Shown here in pieces: positions 13,482 to 19,484 of a stretch of 64,000 nucleotides of DNA. A model generated the notes under the pieces. The model saw nothing but the letters and a program-made list of their open reading frames with translations. It did no database searches and had not been told where the DNA came from. Each line of letters begins with the position of its first letter. Positions within the stretch are counted from its first letter, which is position 1. Origin of the DNA: Gemmatimonadota bacterium (GTDB taxonomy: Bacteria > Gemmatimonadota > Gemmatimonadetes > Gemmatimonadales > GWC2-71-9); NCBI GenBank assembly GCA_003221035.1, contig QHUB01000016.1, forward strand, positions 1-64,000, read 5' to 3'. Both the position numbers and the translations under genes were made by a program.

Positions 13482-14792
13482 TCACACTTTCATCGCGCGC
13501 CACCGTCCGCCCCTCCAAAACAGAATCATCGCGATGCCGCGTGAGACGGCCGTCACACTCAACGCGAGCCAGATCCCGAGTAATCCGATGGCGCCCGACC
13601 ACCAGGCAGCGAGTGGAATGCGCATCCCCGTAAGAGTCGTACTCACGATCTGCGGCCAGAATGTGTACCCCGCTCCCGCCAGCGCACCCTCCAGAATGAG
13701 CTCAAAGCTCTGGCCGATCTGCGCCACCGAGATCACACGCAGATACAACACACCGTCCCTGATCACCTGCGGATCCCGCGTGAACAGCCCCACGAGGCTC
13801 CCTGGAATCAGGAGGAAGGCGATGGCCGTGGTTACGGTGACCATCAGGCAGTAGCCGACGGTCAGGCGCACGGCCTCCTGCGCCCGTGCTTCTTGCCGCG
13901 CGCCGAGGTTCTGACCGACCAGCGCGCTGGCGGCGAGCGAAAAGCCGCTGATCGCGATGAAGCCGAGTCCTTCCATTTTATGACCTACGCCGAGCGCGGC
14001 GAGCGCGGCTGTGCCAAACCGGGACGTGAACCGCGTCAGCCACATATAAATGAGGGAGAGGAGCACACCCGCGAGGGACAGCGGGGCGCCGATTCGGACG
14101 ATCGTCGGCAATGATCTCCAATCCGGCTCGCCCACGCGCACCAATCCACGGCGTAGTGCGATCACGAGTCCGACGAGAAACCCTCCACCGCGGACCATGA
14201 CCGAGGCGAGTGCCGCACCCTCGACGCCGAGCCGCGGGAATGGACCAATACCCATGATCAAGAGTGGATCGAGAAGAATCGACACGCCGACCGAGCACGC
14301 CAGCATGAGAAAGGGCGTGCGCGTGTCGCCCGCGGCCCGGAACGTCGCCTCGATGGCGAAGAAGCCGAACACGAGCGGGGCGCCGAGGAGCCAGGTCGAT
14401 AGATAGGCGTGCCCCAGGCTGGCGACCTCGGGCGGCACTCGCATCAGTCGAAACATCGGGCCGGCCACGGACCAGCCGACGATGCTGACGGCGAGTCCCG
14501 CGCACAGCGCGTACATGACGGCGGCGGCCGCGGCTCGCGCCGCGCGCTCGGGATGTCGTTCCCCATGGCGGCGCGCGGCGACAGCGATCAGTCCGATCTC
14601 GACCATCTCGCCCAGGCTCAACGCGACCCAGACGTAAAACCCCGCGGTCGAGACGGCCGCCAACGCGGCGGGGCCGATCAGACGTCCCACCCAGATGCTG
14701 TCGATCAAATTGAACGAGAAATGGCATGCCATCATCGCGACGGCGGGCGCCGCGAGGCGCAGAACGACGGGACGCAGGGCGCCGGTCGTCAA
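13482..14792 (-). CDS. MATE-family efflux transporter
   Basis: 436 residues, about twelve membrane segments, in two related halves typical of MATE (MatE) exporters that expel drugs or organic cations using H+ or Na+. Typical stretches are LVGQNLGARQEARAQEA in the second half and DTRTPFLMLACSVGVS after TM5. It lies 34 bases downstream of the stressosome operon and in the same direction, so it may be its last gene. Substrate not predictable. Confidence 0.9.
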   Translation of the reverse strand: MTTGALRPVVLRLAAPAVAMMACHFSFNLIDSIWVGRLIGPAALAAVSTAGFYVWVALSLGEMVEIGLIAVAARRHGERHPERAARAAAAAVMYALCAGLAVSIVGWSVAGPMFRLMRVPPEVASLGHAYLSTWLLGAPLVFGFFAIEATFRAAGDTRTPFLMLACSVGVSILLDPLLIMGIGPFPRLGVEGAALASVMVRGGGFLVGLVIALRRGLVRVGEPDWRSLPTIVRIGAPLSLAGVLLSLIYMWLTRFTSRFGTAALAALGVGHKMEGLGFIAISGFSLAASALVGQNLGARQEARAQEAVRLTVGYCLMVTVTTAIAFLLIPGSLVGLFTRDPQVIRDGVLYLRVISVAQIGQSFELILEGALAGAGYTFWPQIVSTTLTGMRIPLAAWWSGAIGLLGIWLALSVTAVSRGIAMILFWRGGRWRAMKV

Positions 14793-14826
14793 TGCACCGG
14801 CCGGTGTTGCGGCTATTTCTGGAGAG

Positions 14827-15432
14827 TTATCGGACGTAGCGTGCTACCAGCACGAGCGCGTCGTCGTTCCCTTTCAGATGACGCGCGATCACGAAGTCGG
14901 CGATCTCCTGCGGCGTGTTGGACAGCACCAGCGTTTCGGCGAACCCGTCGCGGATTCCGTCCGAACAGAGGATAATGGTGTCGCCCAGCGCGAGCGGAAC
15001 GGACCGCACGGTCGGATGCGCCGGCTCGCCGCCGATGAAGCCGGCATTCGGCACCATCGTGATCCGCGAGGGCCGGTTGCCGAGATCGGCGCGGAGCAGC
15101 ACGCCGCCGATATTGCCGATGCCGAGCCATGCCATCGTCGCGGCCTGCGGATCGAGGTAGGCGAGTCCGAGGACGACGCCCCGCAGCCCGACGAGCGCGT
15201 CGCGGCACCGGCGCACGAGGTCGATCAGCGGCTCCGTGGAATGACGGTCCAGCGCCCCGATCGCGGCATGGGCGGCAGCTGCCGCTTCCTGGCCATGCCC
15301 GAGCCCATCGACGACGCCGAGCAGCGTCCCCTTCCCCACGCGTTTGATGAGACAGAGATCGCCCGACTCAGTCTGTCCGGGCAGCGGCAGATTGGCGAAC
15401 GCCGCCTCGATCTTCAAATCGACCGCCGCCAC
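14827..15432 (-). CDS. rsbX: RsbX-like PP2C/SpoIIE-family phosphatase
   Basis: 201 residues with the PP2C metal motifs in RsbX form: ESGDLCLI, GVVDGLGHGQEA, GNIGGVLLR and IILCSDGIRDGF. In Bacillus, RsbX removes phosphate from the stressosome proteins RsbR and RsbS and resets the complex. It overlaps the rsbT gene by 19 bases, so translation is coupled. It lacks any N-terminal sensor or RsbU-type kinase-binding domain, which favours RsbX over RsbU. Confidence 0.87.
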   Translation of the reverse strand: MAAVDLKIEAAFANLPLPGQTESGDLCLIKRVGKGTLLGVVDGLGHGQEAAAAAHAAIGALDRHSTEPLIDLVRRCRDALVGLRGVVLGLAYLDPQAATMAWLGIGNIGGVLLRADLGNRPSRITMVPNAGFIGGEPAHPTVRSVPLALGDTIILCSDGIRDGFAETLVLSNTPQEIADFVIARHLKGNDDALVLVARYVR

Positions 15433-15821
15433 TTCTTCATGGTGATCGTCGTGCCGCGGCCGACGACGGAGTCCACCTCGAATTCGTCCATCAGCCGCTT
15501 GGCACCGGGCAGGCCGGCGCCGACGCCGTGCGAGGTCGAATAGCCGTACTGCATGGCGCGATCGATGTCCGGAATGCCGGGCCCCTGATCGATCGCGACG
15601 ACCGAGACGCCCTGGCGGTCGCCGTTCTGGACGAGACCGAGGATGATCTCGCCCTTCTTGGCGTACATGAGAATGTTGCGCGCGATTTCCGAGATGGCGG
15701 CCGCAATGACCGTCTGCTCGCCGCTCGAGAATCCGGCGACGGCGGCTAGAGCGCGGCCTTGTTGACGGGCTTCAACGACATCAACGTCCGCGGCGATTGG
15801 AAGTCGGAGCTCTTCACCCAC
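15414..15821 (-). CDS. rsbT: RsbT-like serine/threonine kinase (stressosome switch kinase)
   Basis: 135 residues of the GHKL ATPase fold: AAISEIARNILMYA (N box), DQGPGIPDID (G1) and HGVGAGLPGAKRLMDEF (G2). RsbT phosphorylates RsbR and RsbS and is released from the stressosome on stress to activate a downstream partner. It overlaps rsbS by eight bases and rsbX by 19. No RsbU, its usual target, is in the window. Confidence 0.9.
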   Translation of the reverse strand: MGEELRLPIAADVDVVEARQQGRALAAVAGFSSGEQTVIAAAISEIARNILMYAKKGEIILGLVQNGDRQGVSVVAIDQGPGIPDIDRAMQYGYSTSHGVGAGLPGAKRLMDEFEVDSVVGRGTTITMKKWRRSI

Positions 15822-16203
15822 GGCCGCGCTTGGGTTTGGTATCCAGGGTGGCTTTGGTTCGACTGTCGAGGAAGGCGAGGCCCTCCTCGAGGTCCAGCAC
15901 CGTGGCCACGCCCTTCAATGTCAGCCCGAGCTGCACCATCGCGAACGCGACGTCGGGCTGGATTCCTACGATCACCGTCTCGGCGCCGCGCAGGCGCGCC
16001 ATGTGCGCGATGTCGCGCAAGGTCCGGACCGCGAACGAGTCCATGACGTCGAGCGCCGTGACGTCGACGATGACGCCGCGGCAGCGCGAGCGCCCGACCT
16101 GGGCGATCAGCGCTTCGCGAAGATGGGAGAGATCGGCGTCAGTGAGGGCGGACTGAATCGAGGCAATGAGGTATTGCCCCTGCCGCAGAATTGGTACTTC
16201 CAC
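15814..16203 (-). CDS. rsbS: RsbS-like STAS protein (stressosome core)
   Basis: 129 residues, a single STAS domain with VIVDVTALDVMDSFAVRTLRDIA, where the serine of DSF is at the place of the RsbS phosphorylation site. With RsbR it forms the stressosome shell that holds RsbT. The tail after about residue 115 is Lys/Arg-rich. Thirteen bases separate it from rsbR. Confidence 0.9.
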   Translation of the reverse strand: MEVPILRQGQYLIASIQSALTDADLSHLREALIAQVGRSRCRGVIVDVTALDVMDSFAVRTLRDIAHMARLRGAETVIVGIQPDVAFAMVQLGLTLKGVATVLDLEEGLAFLDSRTKATLDTKPKRGRG

Positions 16204-16215
16204 GGCATCCTCCTC

Positions 16216-17148
16216 TTAGCGCTGGGATTCTGGGGCGATTTCGCGAACCGGGGTCGCCGTGGGCGCCGCCCGATCCGCCAGCAACCGCTCGGCCTCTTCA
16301 ATGCCTCCCTGCAGGTCACCGACCGTGGCCATTTCGCTGAGGTCGACGCCGATGGTGACGAGCGTCTGCGCGATTTCGGGCGACAGGCCCGTCACGATCA
16401 CGGTGGCGCCGAGCAGGCGGGATGCTTCGACCGTCTGCACCAGGTGGTTCGCGACGCCAGAGTCCATGGCCGCCACACCGGTCACGTCGATCACGACGAC
16501 TTTGGCGCGGTTGGCGCGGATGGCGCGGAGCAGCTGTTCGGTCAATTGCCGGGCGCGCTGCGGATCGATCACGCCGATGATCGGCAGAATGAGCAGGCGC
16601 TCGCGCACCTGCAACACCGGCGTCGACAGCTCCCGGATCGCTTCCTGTTGCTGCCGGATGATGCGCTCGCGCTCTTCCACGAATCCGACGGCCACCGTGT
16701 TCGCGATGCGGTTGGCGGCGGGTTCGTAGGAGTCGAGAATCCGGTTCAGCTTTTCGACGTTGTCCTGGTATTTGTTGAACAGCGAGCGGGCGAGCACGTC
16801 ACGCAGTAAGAGCACGATTCCGACGACTTCGTCTGTCTCGACGCCTCGCGGAATGATTCGCTCCGACAGTCGCCGCGAGTACGCCTGCAGGGCCTCGAAG
16901 GTGCCGGTCTCGAGCGCTTCCACGTAGTTGTCGTACACGGCCGTGGCTTCCGCGAAGATTTCTTCTTCGGTCATCGCCGTGAGCAGCTCGGCGCGCGTGA
17001 TGCGGCGCGCCCACTCTTCGCGCAGCTGCGTGCGGTTCTGTCGCAGGTGCGCGACCAGCTCGCGCAGCAATCCGGCCGAGGATTCGGTCAGCGCCGGCGC
17101 TTCCGACGCGCGCGTCGATACGCTCATGCTTCGCTTGGTGTCAGCCAT
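16216..17148 (-). CDS. rsbR: RsbR-like sensor with C-terminal STAS domain
   Basis: 310 residues. The N-terminal ~170 residues are helical and resemble the RsbRD-type sensor domain (AHLRQNRTQLREEWARRI, then a conserved DEVVGIVLLLRDVL stretch). A linker helix carrying TPVLQVRERLLILPIIG leads into a STAS domain with VIDVTGVAAMDSGVANHL. RsbR paralogues sense signals and pair with RsbS. The N-terminal domain is neither globin nor PAS by eye. The signal is unknown. Confidence 0.9.
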   Translation of the reverse strand: MADTKRSMSVSTRASEAPALTESSAGLLRELVAHLRQNRTQLREEWARRITRAELLTAMTEEEIFAEATAVYDNYVEALETGTFEALQAYSRRLSERIIPRGVETDEVVGIVLLLRDVLARSLFNKYQDNVEKLNRILDSYEPAANRIANTVAVGFVEERERIIRQQQEAIRELSTPVLQVRERLLILPIIGVIDPQRARQLTEQLLRAIRANRAKVVVIDVTGVAAMDSGVANHLVQTVEASRLLGATVIVTGLSPEIAQTLVTIGVDLSEMATVGDLQGGIEEAERLLADRAAPTATPVREIAPESQR

Positions 17149-17172
17149 GGCTCCAAACCTAGTAAGGGTGCT

Positions 17173-18579
17173 TTAGGGAGCAAGCCCTGAGGCCCTGCTC
17201 TTGCGGCGTTCCTTGGTCTCGTAGAGCGCGACGTCAGCGGCATTTAGCAGAGCCTCGACCGTCTCACCGTGGCCGGGGTACACTGCTACCCCTACGCTGA
17301 TGGATAGGTTCGGCTTTTCGGCATCCGTCGCCAGCCGGTCCACCACCCCACGCGCCACATGCCACGCGGCGGCCTCGCCCGTCTCCGGCAGGACCAGCGC
17401 AAACTCGTCGCCCCCGAAGCGGGCCGCGGTATCGGTCGCCCGGCAGGACCCCAGGAGCGCCTCGGCCACACGGCGAATTGCGAGACTGCCGGAGAGATGA
17501 CCGTGCCGGTCGTTGATCTGCTTCAGTCCATCGAGGTCGAGCAGCACCACGGCGAGCGGCTGTGCCGTCCGGCGCGAGCGCCGGATCTCGGCCTCGAGCG
17601 CGTTGATCAGCTGGCGGTGATTGGCGAGGCCGGTGAGCGGATCGGTGACCGCCAGCTCGCGCCACGTTCCCTGAATCTCGCGCTGCGCCGCCACCACCGC
17701 GGCGAGCACGAGACTCGTCACCGCAGTGATGCCGGTCCATACCTGCAGCAGCACGAACGACTCGTCGCGCGACAGGCGCGCGAACGGCCCGAATCCGTGC
17801 AGGGTCTGCAGGACGGCGACGAGTGAGATGATCAAAATCGCGGTGGCCGATTCTCGTGGCGTGAACCGGAACGAGATCCAGATCAACACCGGCCAGAGCA
17901 ACACCGTGAGCGCGTAGTGGCGCTCCGGGAACACACCGCCGAAAATCGCGAACGTCACGAGCGCGGTCGCCACGGCGGCCGCGAGGGCTTCCAGTAATCG
18001 CGTGCCGGCAAATTTCGGCGCCGGTTTCACTCCGATCCAGATGATCAGCACCGGGGCGAAGATGATCGCACCGACCGCGTCGCCGAGCCACCAGGTGAGC
18101 CAGATCCGCGGCGCCTCGCCCAGCTCGCGCGTGCCGCTCGCCACCAGCGCGGCGACGCCGATCGTCGCGCTGACCATCGTGCTGATCAGCGCCGCCAGGG
18201 CGACGAATCGGAAAATGTCGCGCACGCGATCGAACACGCGGCCGCCGCGCGCAAAGCGGTTGACGAGGTAGGCGCCCAGCAGACCCTCGAGCGTGTTTCC
18301 CGCGGCGATGCCGAGGGACATCAGGGGCGAGCCGGCCGTCGCCACGTTGGCGAGGAATGCCCCGGCGAGAACCGCCGGCCAGACCTGGTAGCCATACAAA
18401 ACGAACGCAGCCAACGCGATGCCGGTCGGCGGCCAGACGGTTGTGACGCTTCGATCGACGTAGGCGAACTGAAGGCCGAGGCGTGCTGCAGCGAAGTACA
18501 CGACCGCGACCCCTACCAACAGCGCGACGCGGCGTAATGGTTGGCTCATCCGGCCTAAGCTAAAGGAGGGATTAGCCAT
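17173..18579 (-). CDS. MASE1-GGDEF membrane diguanylate cyclase
   Basis: 468 residues. About eight membrane segments of the MASE1 sensor type (TTVWPPTGIALAAFVLYG is characteristic) are followed by a GGDEF domain with DPLTGLANHR, DLDGLKQINDRHGH and active site RFGGDEFALV at about residue 395. It should make cyclic di-GMP. No RxxD inhibitory site is apparent before GGDEF. An internal ATG at 18549 is an alternative start. It is 24 bases upstream of rsbR in the same direction, so it probably leads the stressosome transcript. Confidence 0.9.
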   Translation of the reverse strand: MANPSFSLGRMSQPLRRVALLVGVAVVYFAAARLGLQFAYVDRSVTTVWPPTGIALAAFVLYGYQVWPAVLAGAFLANVATAGSPLMSLGIAAGNTLEGLLGAYLVNRFARGGRVFDRVRDIFRFVALAALISTMVSATIGVAALVASGTRELGEAPRIWLTWWLGDAVGAIIFAPVLIIWIGVKPAPKFAGTRLLEALAAAVATALVTFAIFGGVFPERHYALTVLLWPVLIWISFRFTPRESATAILIISLVAVLQTLHGFGPFARLSRDESFVLLQVWTGITAVTSLVLAAVVAAQREIQGTWRELAVTDPLTGLANHRQLINALEAEIRRSRRTAQPLAVVLLDLDGLKQINDRHGHLSGSLAIRRVAEALLGSCRATDTAARFGGDEFALVLPETGEAAAWHVARGVVDRLATDAEKPNLSISVGVAVYPGHGETVEALLNAADVALYETKERRKSRASGLAP

Positions 18580-18656: not shown

Positions 18657-19484
18657 GTGCCTTGGACAATCCGCCGTGTCGAGCGACGCGTCTCTTCGCC
18701 GCGCCGACGTGGCCTCGATAATAGAGCCAGTGATCGTGATGGTTCGCTGAACCGGCGCCGTGGTGGTGACCGTCGCGTGGGCAGCACGTCCGTGCCTGCA
18801 GCACGCATTCGTGTTCTCGTTCTCGAAGATAATCGTCTGATGCGCGATGGGCTCGCGCGCTTGCTCGCGGCATTTCCCGACGTGGACATCGTCGCGAGCA
18901 CCGACAACGCCGACACCGCAACGCAACAGGTGCGCGACGCCAAGCCGCAAGTCGTCCTGCTCGATGCGGGACTCGCGAACGGTGACAGCTACGCGTTCCT
19001 CGGCAACTTGAAGGCGAGCGCGCCCGACGCCAAAGCCATAATCATGGACTTCGTTCCCGCGCAGCAGGACGTCAATCAATTCATCGACGGCGGCGCCAAC
19101 GGGTTCATCATGAAGGACGCGACCGCCGAGGACATCGTGAAGGCGATTCGTTCCGTGGCGAGCGGCACCGACCTGCCGCCACCACCGGCTGCGCTGCACG
19201 TCTCCGGTCCGGAAAACGTCATCAGCGGCGCGAGTGCCGGTGGCGCTCAGGCCGGAAGCGCGGTGCGCCTGACCAAGCGCGAGCAGGAAATCAGAGACCT
19301 GATCGCGGCCGGCCTGGGCAACAAAGAAATCGCGCAGCGGCTCAACATCGCCACCAACACGGTGAAGAGCCACGTCCACAACATGCTCGGCAAGCTCTCG
19401 GCGATTTCCCCGCCCGACCGGCGCCAGGGGAACCGCAGCCGCCGCGGGACGAGCCGGCGCTCCTACCGGTTCACGCGCGGATGA
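18657..19484 (+). CDS. Response regulator with truncated LuxR-type helix-turn-helix
   Basis: A receiver domain (acidic EDN, phospho-acceptor D103 in VVLLDAGL, K153 in IMKDA, numbered from 18657) precedes a LuxR/GerE HTH at about 205-247 (LTKREQEIRDLIAAGL, NTVKSHVHNMLGKL). After LGKL the family sequence ends and an Arg-rich tail of about 28 residues follows to the stop. The N-terminal ~45 residues are unlike a receiver, so GTG at 18777 or 18792 may be the true start. The new tail is antisense to the TPR-like gene; see findings. No partner kinase is adjacent. Confidence 0.8.
   Translation: MPWTIRRVERRVSSPRRRGLDNRASDRDGSLNRRRGGDRRVGSTSVPAARIRVLVLEDNRLMRDGLARLLAAFPDVDIVASTDNADTATQQVRDAKPQVVLLDAGLANGDSYAFLGNLKASAPDAKAIIMDFVPAQQDVNQFIDGGANGFIMKDATAEDIVKAIRSVASGTDLPPPPAALHVSGPENVISGASAGGAQAGSAVRLTKREQEIRDLIAAGLGNKEIAQRLNIATNTVKSHVHNMLGKLSAISPPDRRQGNRSRRGTSRRSYRFTRG

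Follow-up and report, generated by a model that had tools for sequence, protein, structure and literature searches.

How do stressosomes gain new outputs? The usual route to a new output is the swap of RsbU_N, the receptor domain of RsbT, onto another effector. The question is posed by one operon in a stretch of 64,000 nucleotides (hereafter the window) from a Gemmatimonadota bacterium (assembly GCA_003221035.1, contig QHUB01000016.1, positions 1 to 64,000), a member of a genus of soil bacteria. Here the genes of an RsbR-RsbS-RsbT-RsbX stressosome (rsbRSTX) lie between those of a MASE1-GGDEF diguanylate cyclase and a MATE transporter. As a preliminary description made from the letters alone had stated, no gene for RsbU, RsbV, RsbW or sigma-B is found inside the operon. 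The stressosome particle measures about 1.8 MDa; that of the window is a prediction from its genes. Comparison with close relatives makes it probable, in our view, that a genuine stressosome was rewired by relocation in the window's genus, and its family, which has no recognisable RsbU_N receptor, offers a case for the general question.

The rsbRSTX cassette and its relocation

Six minus-strand open reading frames (ORFs) occupy exactly 13482-18579 in the order MASE1-GGDEF, rsbR, rsbS, rsbT, rsbX and MATE (Table 1). Thus the gene order and the tight leftward run proposed earlier were confirmed by ORFs, Pfam and spacing: gaps of 24 bp (GGDEF-rsbR), 12 bp (rsbR-rsbS) and 34 bp (rsbX-MATE), and overlaps of 8 bp (rsbS/rsbT) and 19 bp (rsbT/rsbX). 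We read the six genes as an operon because of these 12-34 bp gaps and two overlaps. The MASE1-GGDEF-RSTX order was kept in every genome of the window's genus whose contig spans the locus; hence the arrangement is not due to chance.

Comparison with solved structures matched RsbR (1e-32) and RsbS (8e-27) to stressosome chains. Both proteins carry phosphorylatable Ser/Thr residues, which in RsbR are a Ser replacing the first Thr and the Thr within EIAQT, and both are co-encoded with the HATPase kinase RsbT, whose ATP-site residues are kept (E45, N49, D78, G80, G82, G101 and G103). The feedback phosphatase RsbX adjoins RsbT; its best PDB match is the SpoIIE phosphatase 3zt9, which we take to be the Moorella stressosome phosphatase, and the next is RsbX 3w40. 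On these features the operon carries a genuine and complete RsbR-RsbS-RsbT-RsbX set. By homology, stress would lead RsbT to phosphorylate RsbS and RsbR, RsbT would be released and RsbX would reset the complex. The first gene encodes MASE1 (residues 21-300, 2e-50 with Pfam) and GGDEF (310-461, 9e-39), with the GGDEF motif intact and an RxxD motif (RATD) five residues ahead of it.

The MASE1-GGDEF orthologues of sister genera, 46-56% identical in the MASE1 part, are found away from RSTX. Eight sister-genus genomes carry Mrp-TPR-MASE1-GGDEF-MATE without rsbRSTX (one with a small ORF ahead of MATE), and most of the eight have the flanks of the window, an ECF sigma gene and UbiE-UbiD-UbiA. In seven of them the rsbRSTX genes sit on another contig, followed by genes for an enhancer-binding protein (EBP) and a TPR protein. 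Since these regions otherwise share the synteny of the window, the cassette was inserted between MASE1-GGDEF and MATE. From the distribution of the two arrangements, we date the insertion to the ancestor of the window's genus, in which rsbRSTX would have been placed at this junction. The MASE1-GGDEF/MATE pair is thus older than the arrival of the stressosome, and the cyclase is not its original partner. In the RsbT tree the window's genus (100/100) is nested within its family, beside genome G041 (94/93), and therefore the move took place within the lineage and was not an import; acquisition of the cassette from another phylum is ruled out by the same tree.

Table 1. Positions of the operon genes and of associated features (in the window unless a locus is named)
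Feature	Position	Strand	Evidence
MASE1-GGDEF diguanylate cyclase, 468 amino acids (aa); first gene of the operon	17173..18579	-	Pfam, translation
RsbR, 310 aa; RsbRD_N-type N-terminus and STAS	16216..17148	-	Pfam, alignment to Listeria-type RsbR
RsbS, 129 aa; single STAS, phosphorylatable Ser in MDSFA	15814..16203	-	Pfam, structure-chain match
RsbT kinase, 135 aa; HATPase_c_2, position 92 Tyr, not Asp	15414..15821	-	Pfam, alignment
RsbX, 201 aa; SpoIIE/PP2C feedback phosphatase	14827..15432	-	Pfam SpoIIE; best PDB match 3zt9
MATE-family transporter (MatE); last gene of the operon, ancestral neighbour of MASE1-GGDEF	13482..14792	-	Pfam; sister-genus synteny
NarL/LuxR-type response regulator, divergent from the operon	18657..19484	+	Pfam
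Big2-type surface-protein-like large ORF at the GGDEF/MATE junction	L236 8485-10923; L238 8259-10778		
Small ORF at the GGDEF/MATE junction	L239		

A family without recognisable RsbU_N and its sigma-54-linked operon

Where sister genera have a closely related RSTX cassette, the next gene after rsbX encodes an NtrC-type sigma-54 activator, the EBP, and the one after that the TPR protein. The EBP has a receiver-AAA+-Fis layout, in which the sigma-54-contacting GAFTGA motif and the Fis-type helix-turn-helix are kept while the phospho-Asp and the Lys of the receiver are not conserved. Its structure model is of low overall confidence (55.8) and usable only for the receiver-like N-terminus, which keeps the (beta-alpha)5 fold (residues about 21-140, pLDDT mostly 70-86). 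The TPR protein is encoded in all 18 genomes with the RSTX-EBP type; the five whose RsbT is of a divergent type lack it. We considered a hidden RsbU_N fold in this protein and rejected it: in the AlphaFold model (pLDDT 88) a helical superhelix of TPR type extends from about residue 61 onward, the first 60 residues being partly of low confidence, and the 50 top-ranked Foldseek hits are all TPR proteins or TPR-like proteins with helical repeats.

A -24/-12 (sigma-54) site precedes rsbR in 17 of the 18 sister-genus loci and is absent from the window. The exact element TGGCAC-TAGCC-TTGCT lies 38-58 bp ahead of the rsbR start in 15 loci; among the others, L076 carries one change and L081 has the site upstream of a miscalled start. 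An inverted repeat, TGTTGC-N6-GCAACA, follows the element in most loci. The strict sigma-54 pattern occurred only 4 times in 1.9 Mb strand-bases of non-family loci. The candidate rpoN/EBP-linked promoter reads TGGCACTAGCCTTGCT. As the promoter ahead of rsbR and the EBP belong to the same operon, the cassette of sister genera is probably autoregulated through its own sigma-54 activator. Further sigma-54-type sites were seen 50-84 bp ahead of nearby genes, mostly for lipoprotein-like products (L069, L071, L073, L079, L081 and L086); these genes are candidate members of the regulon.

The window thus lacks both the EBP and TPR genes after RSTX and the sigma-54 promoter, all of which sister genera possess. 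The 24 bp GGDEF-rsbR gap showed neither a -24/-12 site nor a clear promoter, and the sigma-70-like promoter of the sister-genus MATE gene (TTGAC...TAGCTT) was sought in the window with no result. These comparisons suggest that the ancestral linked output of the family is the sigma-54 activator with the TPR protein. The ancestral cassette would have headed an operon ending in the phosphorylation-dead-receiver EBP and TPR protein and transcribed from a sigma-54 promoter; the moved cassette would have lost this promoter and become co-transcribed with the cyclase.

Eighty RsbT loci were gathered across bacteria and archaea, 63 of them outside the window's family, and an RsbU_N-like domain model was built from proteins encoded after rsbX. 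With this model, an RsbU_N protein was found near RsbT in 62 of the 63 outside loci; in the sole exception (L191) the contig ends just past RsbT. Forty-three of these outside loci, held out of the alignment, matched at E below 1e-13, and Pfam confirmed RsbU_N in both outside proteins tested. The model found nothing in any of 101 genomes of the window's family and was positive in four of four control genomes, whose rows are themselves members of the model. RsbT of this family must therefore reach its output without a recognisable RsbU_N. Three loci labelled archaeal (L146, Methanoperedenaceae; L150, Methanosarcinales; L158, uncultured archaeon) carry complete RSTX with an RsbU_N protein. A divergent stressosome is present in other genera of the family (L089 5010-10982; also L090, L091 and L093), in which RsbT-like HATPases occur as fusions, one with a SpoIIE phosphatase and another with a complete histidine kinase (HATPase_c_2-HisKA-HATPase_c). 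These fusions are another way of signalling without RsbU_N.

The genome of the window (113 contigs, 98.7% complete) was searched for partners of the SigB type. Pfam found no RsbU_N domain in it. None of its three region-3 sigma factors is of the SigB/F/G type: they score 111-136 bits on TIGR02980 (cut-off 234) and are all nearer RpoD/RpoS. RpoN is present. One other clear SpoIIE phosphatase is encoded, a GAF-SpoIIE protein of 529 aa on contig C65, unlinked to the operon. It is adjacent to genes for a STAS protein (111 aa) and a HATPase (142 aa) in an operon-like, RsbV/RsbW/RsbU-like trio, in which the phosphatase has no RsbU_N, the RsbW-like protein reaches a score of 35 (cut-off 145) and no sigma gene stands alongside. 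The trio is located at 17.2-19.5 kb of C65 (L054 3695-6041), between a phosphate-acetyltransferase-like gene and ksgA. Thus the genome-wide search called for earlier returned unlinked V/W/U-like genes and no sigma-B-type factor.

Candidate targets of RsbT

Where free RsbT acts in the window genome we infer from gene neighbourhood and residue conservation, and we agree with the preliminary description that sequence does not settle the output. The options named there, the adjacent GGDEF protein or an unlinked partner, were incomplete, as they missed the sigma-54 activator with the TPR protein, the presumed ancestral output. Homologues of this pair persist on contig C63 of the window genome, where EBP and TPR genes follow ftsK with a second RsbT (RsbT2), unlinked to the operon and 46% identical to the window RsbT. 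The same RsbT2-EBP-TPR set is present in genome G084. The remaining eight genomes from the genus lack the set after ftsK, and they have neither the TPR gene nor a second RsbT. Assembly gaps were ruled out as the reason, since the ftsK locus continues into other genes such as recA. The NarL-type regulator divergent from the operon is intact in the window and has its receiver part matched in G084, whereas four other species of the genus (G089, G050, G072 and G027) show its helix-turn-helix part only; RsbT2-EBP-TPR, too, persists in just the window genome and G084.

The two RsbT differ at position 92. All 13 rows from the window's genus (some genomes twice) have Tyr there, against Asp in 19/19 sister rows, 54/63 outside rows and RsbT2. 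In B. subtilis, D92 of RsbT contacts R91 in the linker of RsbU (PMC12143880). RsbT of the genus may thus have lost a conserved contact residue, while the EBP-TPR pair persists elsewhere in the window genome with an Asp-keeping paralogue and is missing from most other species of the genus. The contrast between Asp in RsbT2 and Tyr in RsbT1, the RsbT of the operon, fits a possible division of labour, in which RsbT2 would serve the activator and RsbT1 would have been re-specified.

As the single target of free RsbT, the co-expressed MASE1-GGDEF protein is our tentative first choice, through a contact other than RsbU_N, because it is the linked regulator throughout the genus and its catalytic motifs are intact. 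Accordingly, we give some credit, short of calling it probable, to direct c-di-GMP (cyclic di-GMP) control, in which free RsbT, or RsbR/RsbS, would bind MASE1-GGDEF and switch the cyclase, in the manner of Moorella by a different contact. Its placement about 24 bp ahead of rsbR in every covering genome of the genus, the intact cyclase and I-site motifs, the altered RsbT contact surface, the fact that 8 of 10 genus species retain no EBP-TPR output, and the Moorella precedent for RsbT-to-GGDEF control (PMC12143880) all speak for it. However, the cyclase has neither an RsbU_N nor room for one, so that the known RsbT-to-cyclase route, that of Moorella MtG, is unavailable to it. Its orthologues are unlinked in sister genera, and a Rokubacteria MASE1 protein ahead of rsbR has neither GGDEF nor HATPase. 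Hence the earlier proposal keeps its GGDEF-led operon, and is weakened in its view of the cyclase as output, the MASE1-GGDEF/MATE pair being the older one.

Some observations count against the reading that we prefer, relocation followed by re-specification. Control of GGDEF by the stressosome is possible, and the grounds for it are adjacency and retention. The action of RsbT on the EBP in sister genera, likewise, is suggested by operon structure, promoter and co-occurrence, and one sister locus (L085) has no sigma-54 site. Position 92 is presumably that of B. subtilis D92, an equivalence that we assume from an ungapped alignment and the B. subtilis sequence. Finally, the GGDEF/MATE junction bears other inserts in sister species (Table 1), and may simply be permissive. 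The complete chain, from a family that dropped RsbU_N, through RsbT driving a dead-receiver sigma-54 activator (autoregulated, -24/-12), to a cassette transplanted into the MASE1-GGDEF operon with RsbT re-specified to c-di-GMP by a new contact, is accordingly held as doubtful.

These unrelated inserts keep alive a neutral reading, possible although we doubt it, in which the move to a permissive junction brought mere co-expression and the true partner is unlinked, either RsbT2-EBP-TPR here or another protein. EBP, TPR and RpoN are indeed all present in the window genome. Yet the linkage is kept genus-wide while most of the genus has no EBP-TPR, and position 92 of RsbT was changed uniformly. Of the partners outside the operon the EBP, reached by exchange with RsbT2, is the next candidate after MASE1-GGDEF, though a rather unlikely one; otherwise a further protein would be the target.

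It is less probable still that MASE1-GGDEF serves as an input, its membrane MASE1 part signalling to RsbR and its cytoplasmic domain being secondary. In two Rokubacteria loci (L153, 6969-8567; L161, 3-1115) the gene immediately preceding rsbR encodes a MASE1-PAS-HisKA protein that has no HATPase; its DHp His, present in L161, is Gln in L153, where kinase output is impossible. A protein with neither GGDEF nor HATPase thus leads rsbR, suggesting that MASE1 may be an input. However, the MASE1 association in the window's genus arose separately, and the conserved GGDEF catalytic motif suggests an enzymatic output.

Least probable by far is a classical route in which RsbT activates the GAF-SpoIIE phosphatase at C65: STAS, HATPase and phosphatase genes are adjacent there, but we rejected direct action of RsbT on this phosphatase as unlikely because it has no RsbU_N. 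The genome has no SigB/F/G-type sigma (best 136 bits against 234), and the RsbW-like score is far below its cut-off.

Comparison with known systems

Literature linking RsbT to enhancer-binding proteins, or a stressosome to MASE1, was sought without result in a collection with few subscription journals. We regard the family's sigma-54-linked stressosome as an apparently new variant, and as a more striking result than the window operon itself. One conserved core seems to have been rewired twice in succession, first to a sigma-54 activator and then by transplantation into a diguanylate-cyclase operon, the second time along with a substitution at a residue through which RsbT is known to make contact. 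Close relatives preserve the synteny from before and after the move, which opens each gene's part in the rewiring to test.

The EBP of C63 and its sister orthologues resemble PEP-CTERM PrsR-type and NtrC-type activators in their receiver-AAA+-Fis layout and kept GAFTGA, and the best NCBIfam match of the C63 protein is TIGR02915 (375 bits, below the cut-off of 502.6). Unlike these activators, the receiver of the C63 type has neither the phospho-Asp nor the Lys, and its gene follows rsbX or RsbT2 instead of a histidine kinase.

Similarly to B. subtilis RsbRST-RsbX-RsbUVW-sigB, the window system has the R/S/T core, the phospho-sites and a feedback phosphatase. The B. subtilis sigB operon is autoregulated by sigma-B, and the sister-genus cassette likewise has a promoter of its output's own type. 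In contrast, the window's family has neither the RsbU_N receptor nor sigma-B, and the output of sister genera would be a sigma-54 activator.

Among the RSTX clusters of Vibrio vulnificus and other bacteria, eleven architectures of downstream modules were described, several without detected RsbU_N (Heinz 2022, PMC9237108). As in the loci studied here, a signalling module follows RSTX within a few bases, and c-di-GMP-linked modules are listed, in agreement with what had been said of such surveys. However, neither a sigma-54 activator nor MASE1 is among the listed domains, and the window cyclase precedes rsbR.

The closest precedent is Moorella thermoacetica, where MtR/MtS/MtT/MtX occur with the cyclase MtG, an RsbU_N-GAF-GGDEF protein (Quin et al. 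2012 as cited in PMC12143880). In both systems RSTX is tied to a GGDEF cyclase without sigma-B, and window RsbX has 3zt9 as its best match. The RsbU_N of MtG is an RsbT receptor, whereas the window cyclase has MASE1 only; no RsbU_N-bearing GGDEF enzyme is encoded with RSTX in the window, and its MASE1-GGDEF/MATE pair is older than the linkage. Thus coupling of a stressosome to a cyclase is already known from Moorella, and the MASE1-GGDEF arrangement of the window is a new variation on it.

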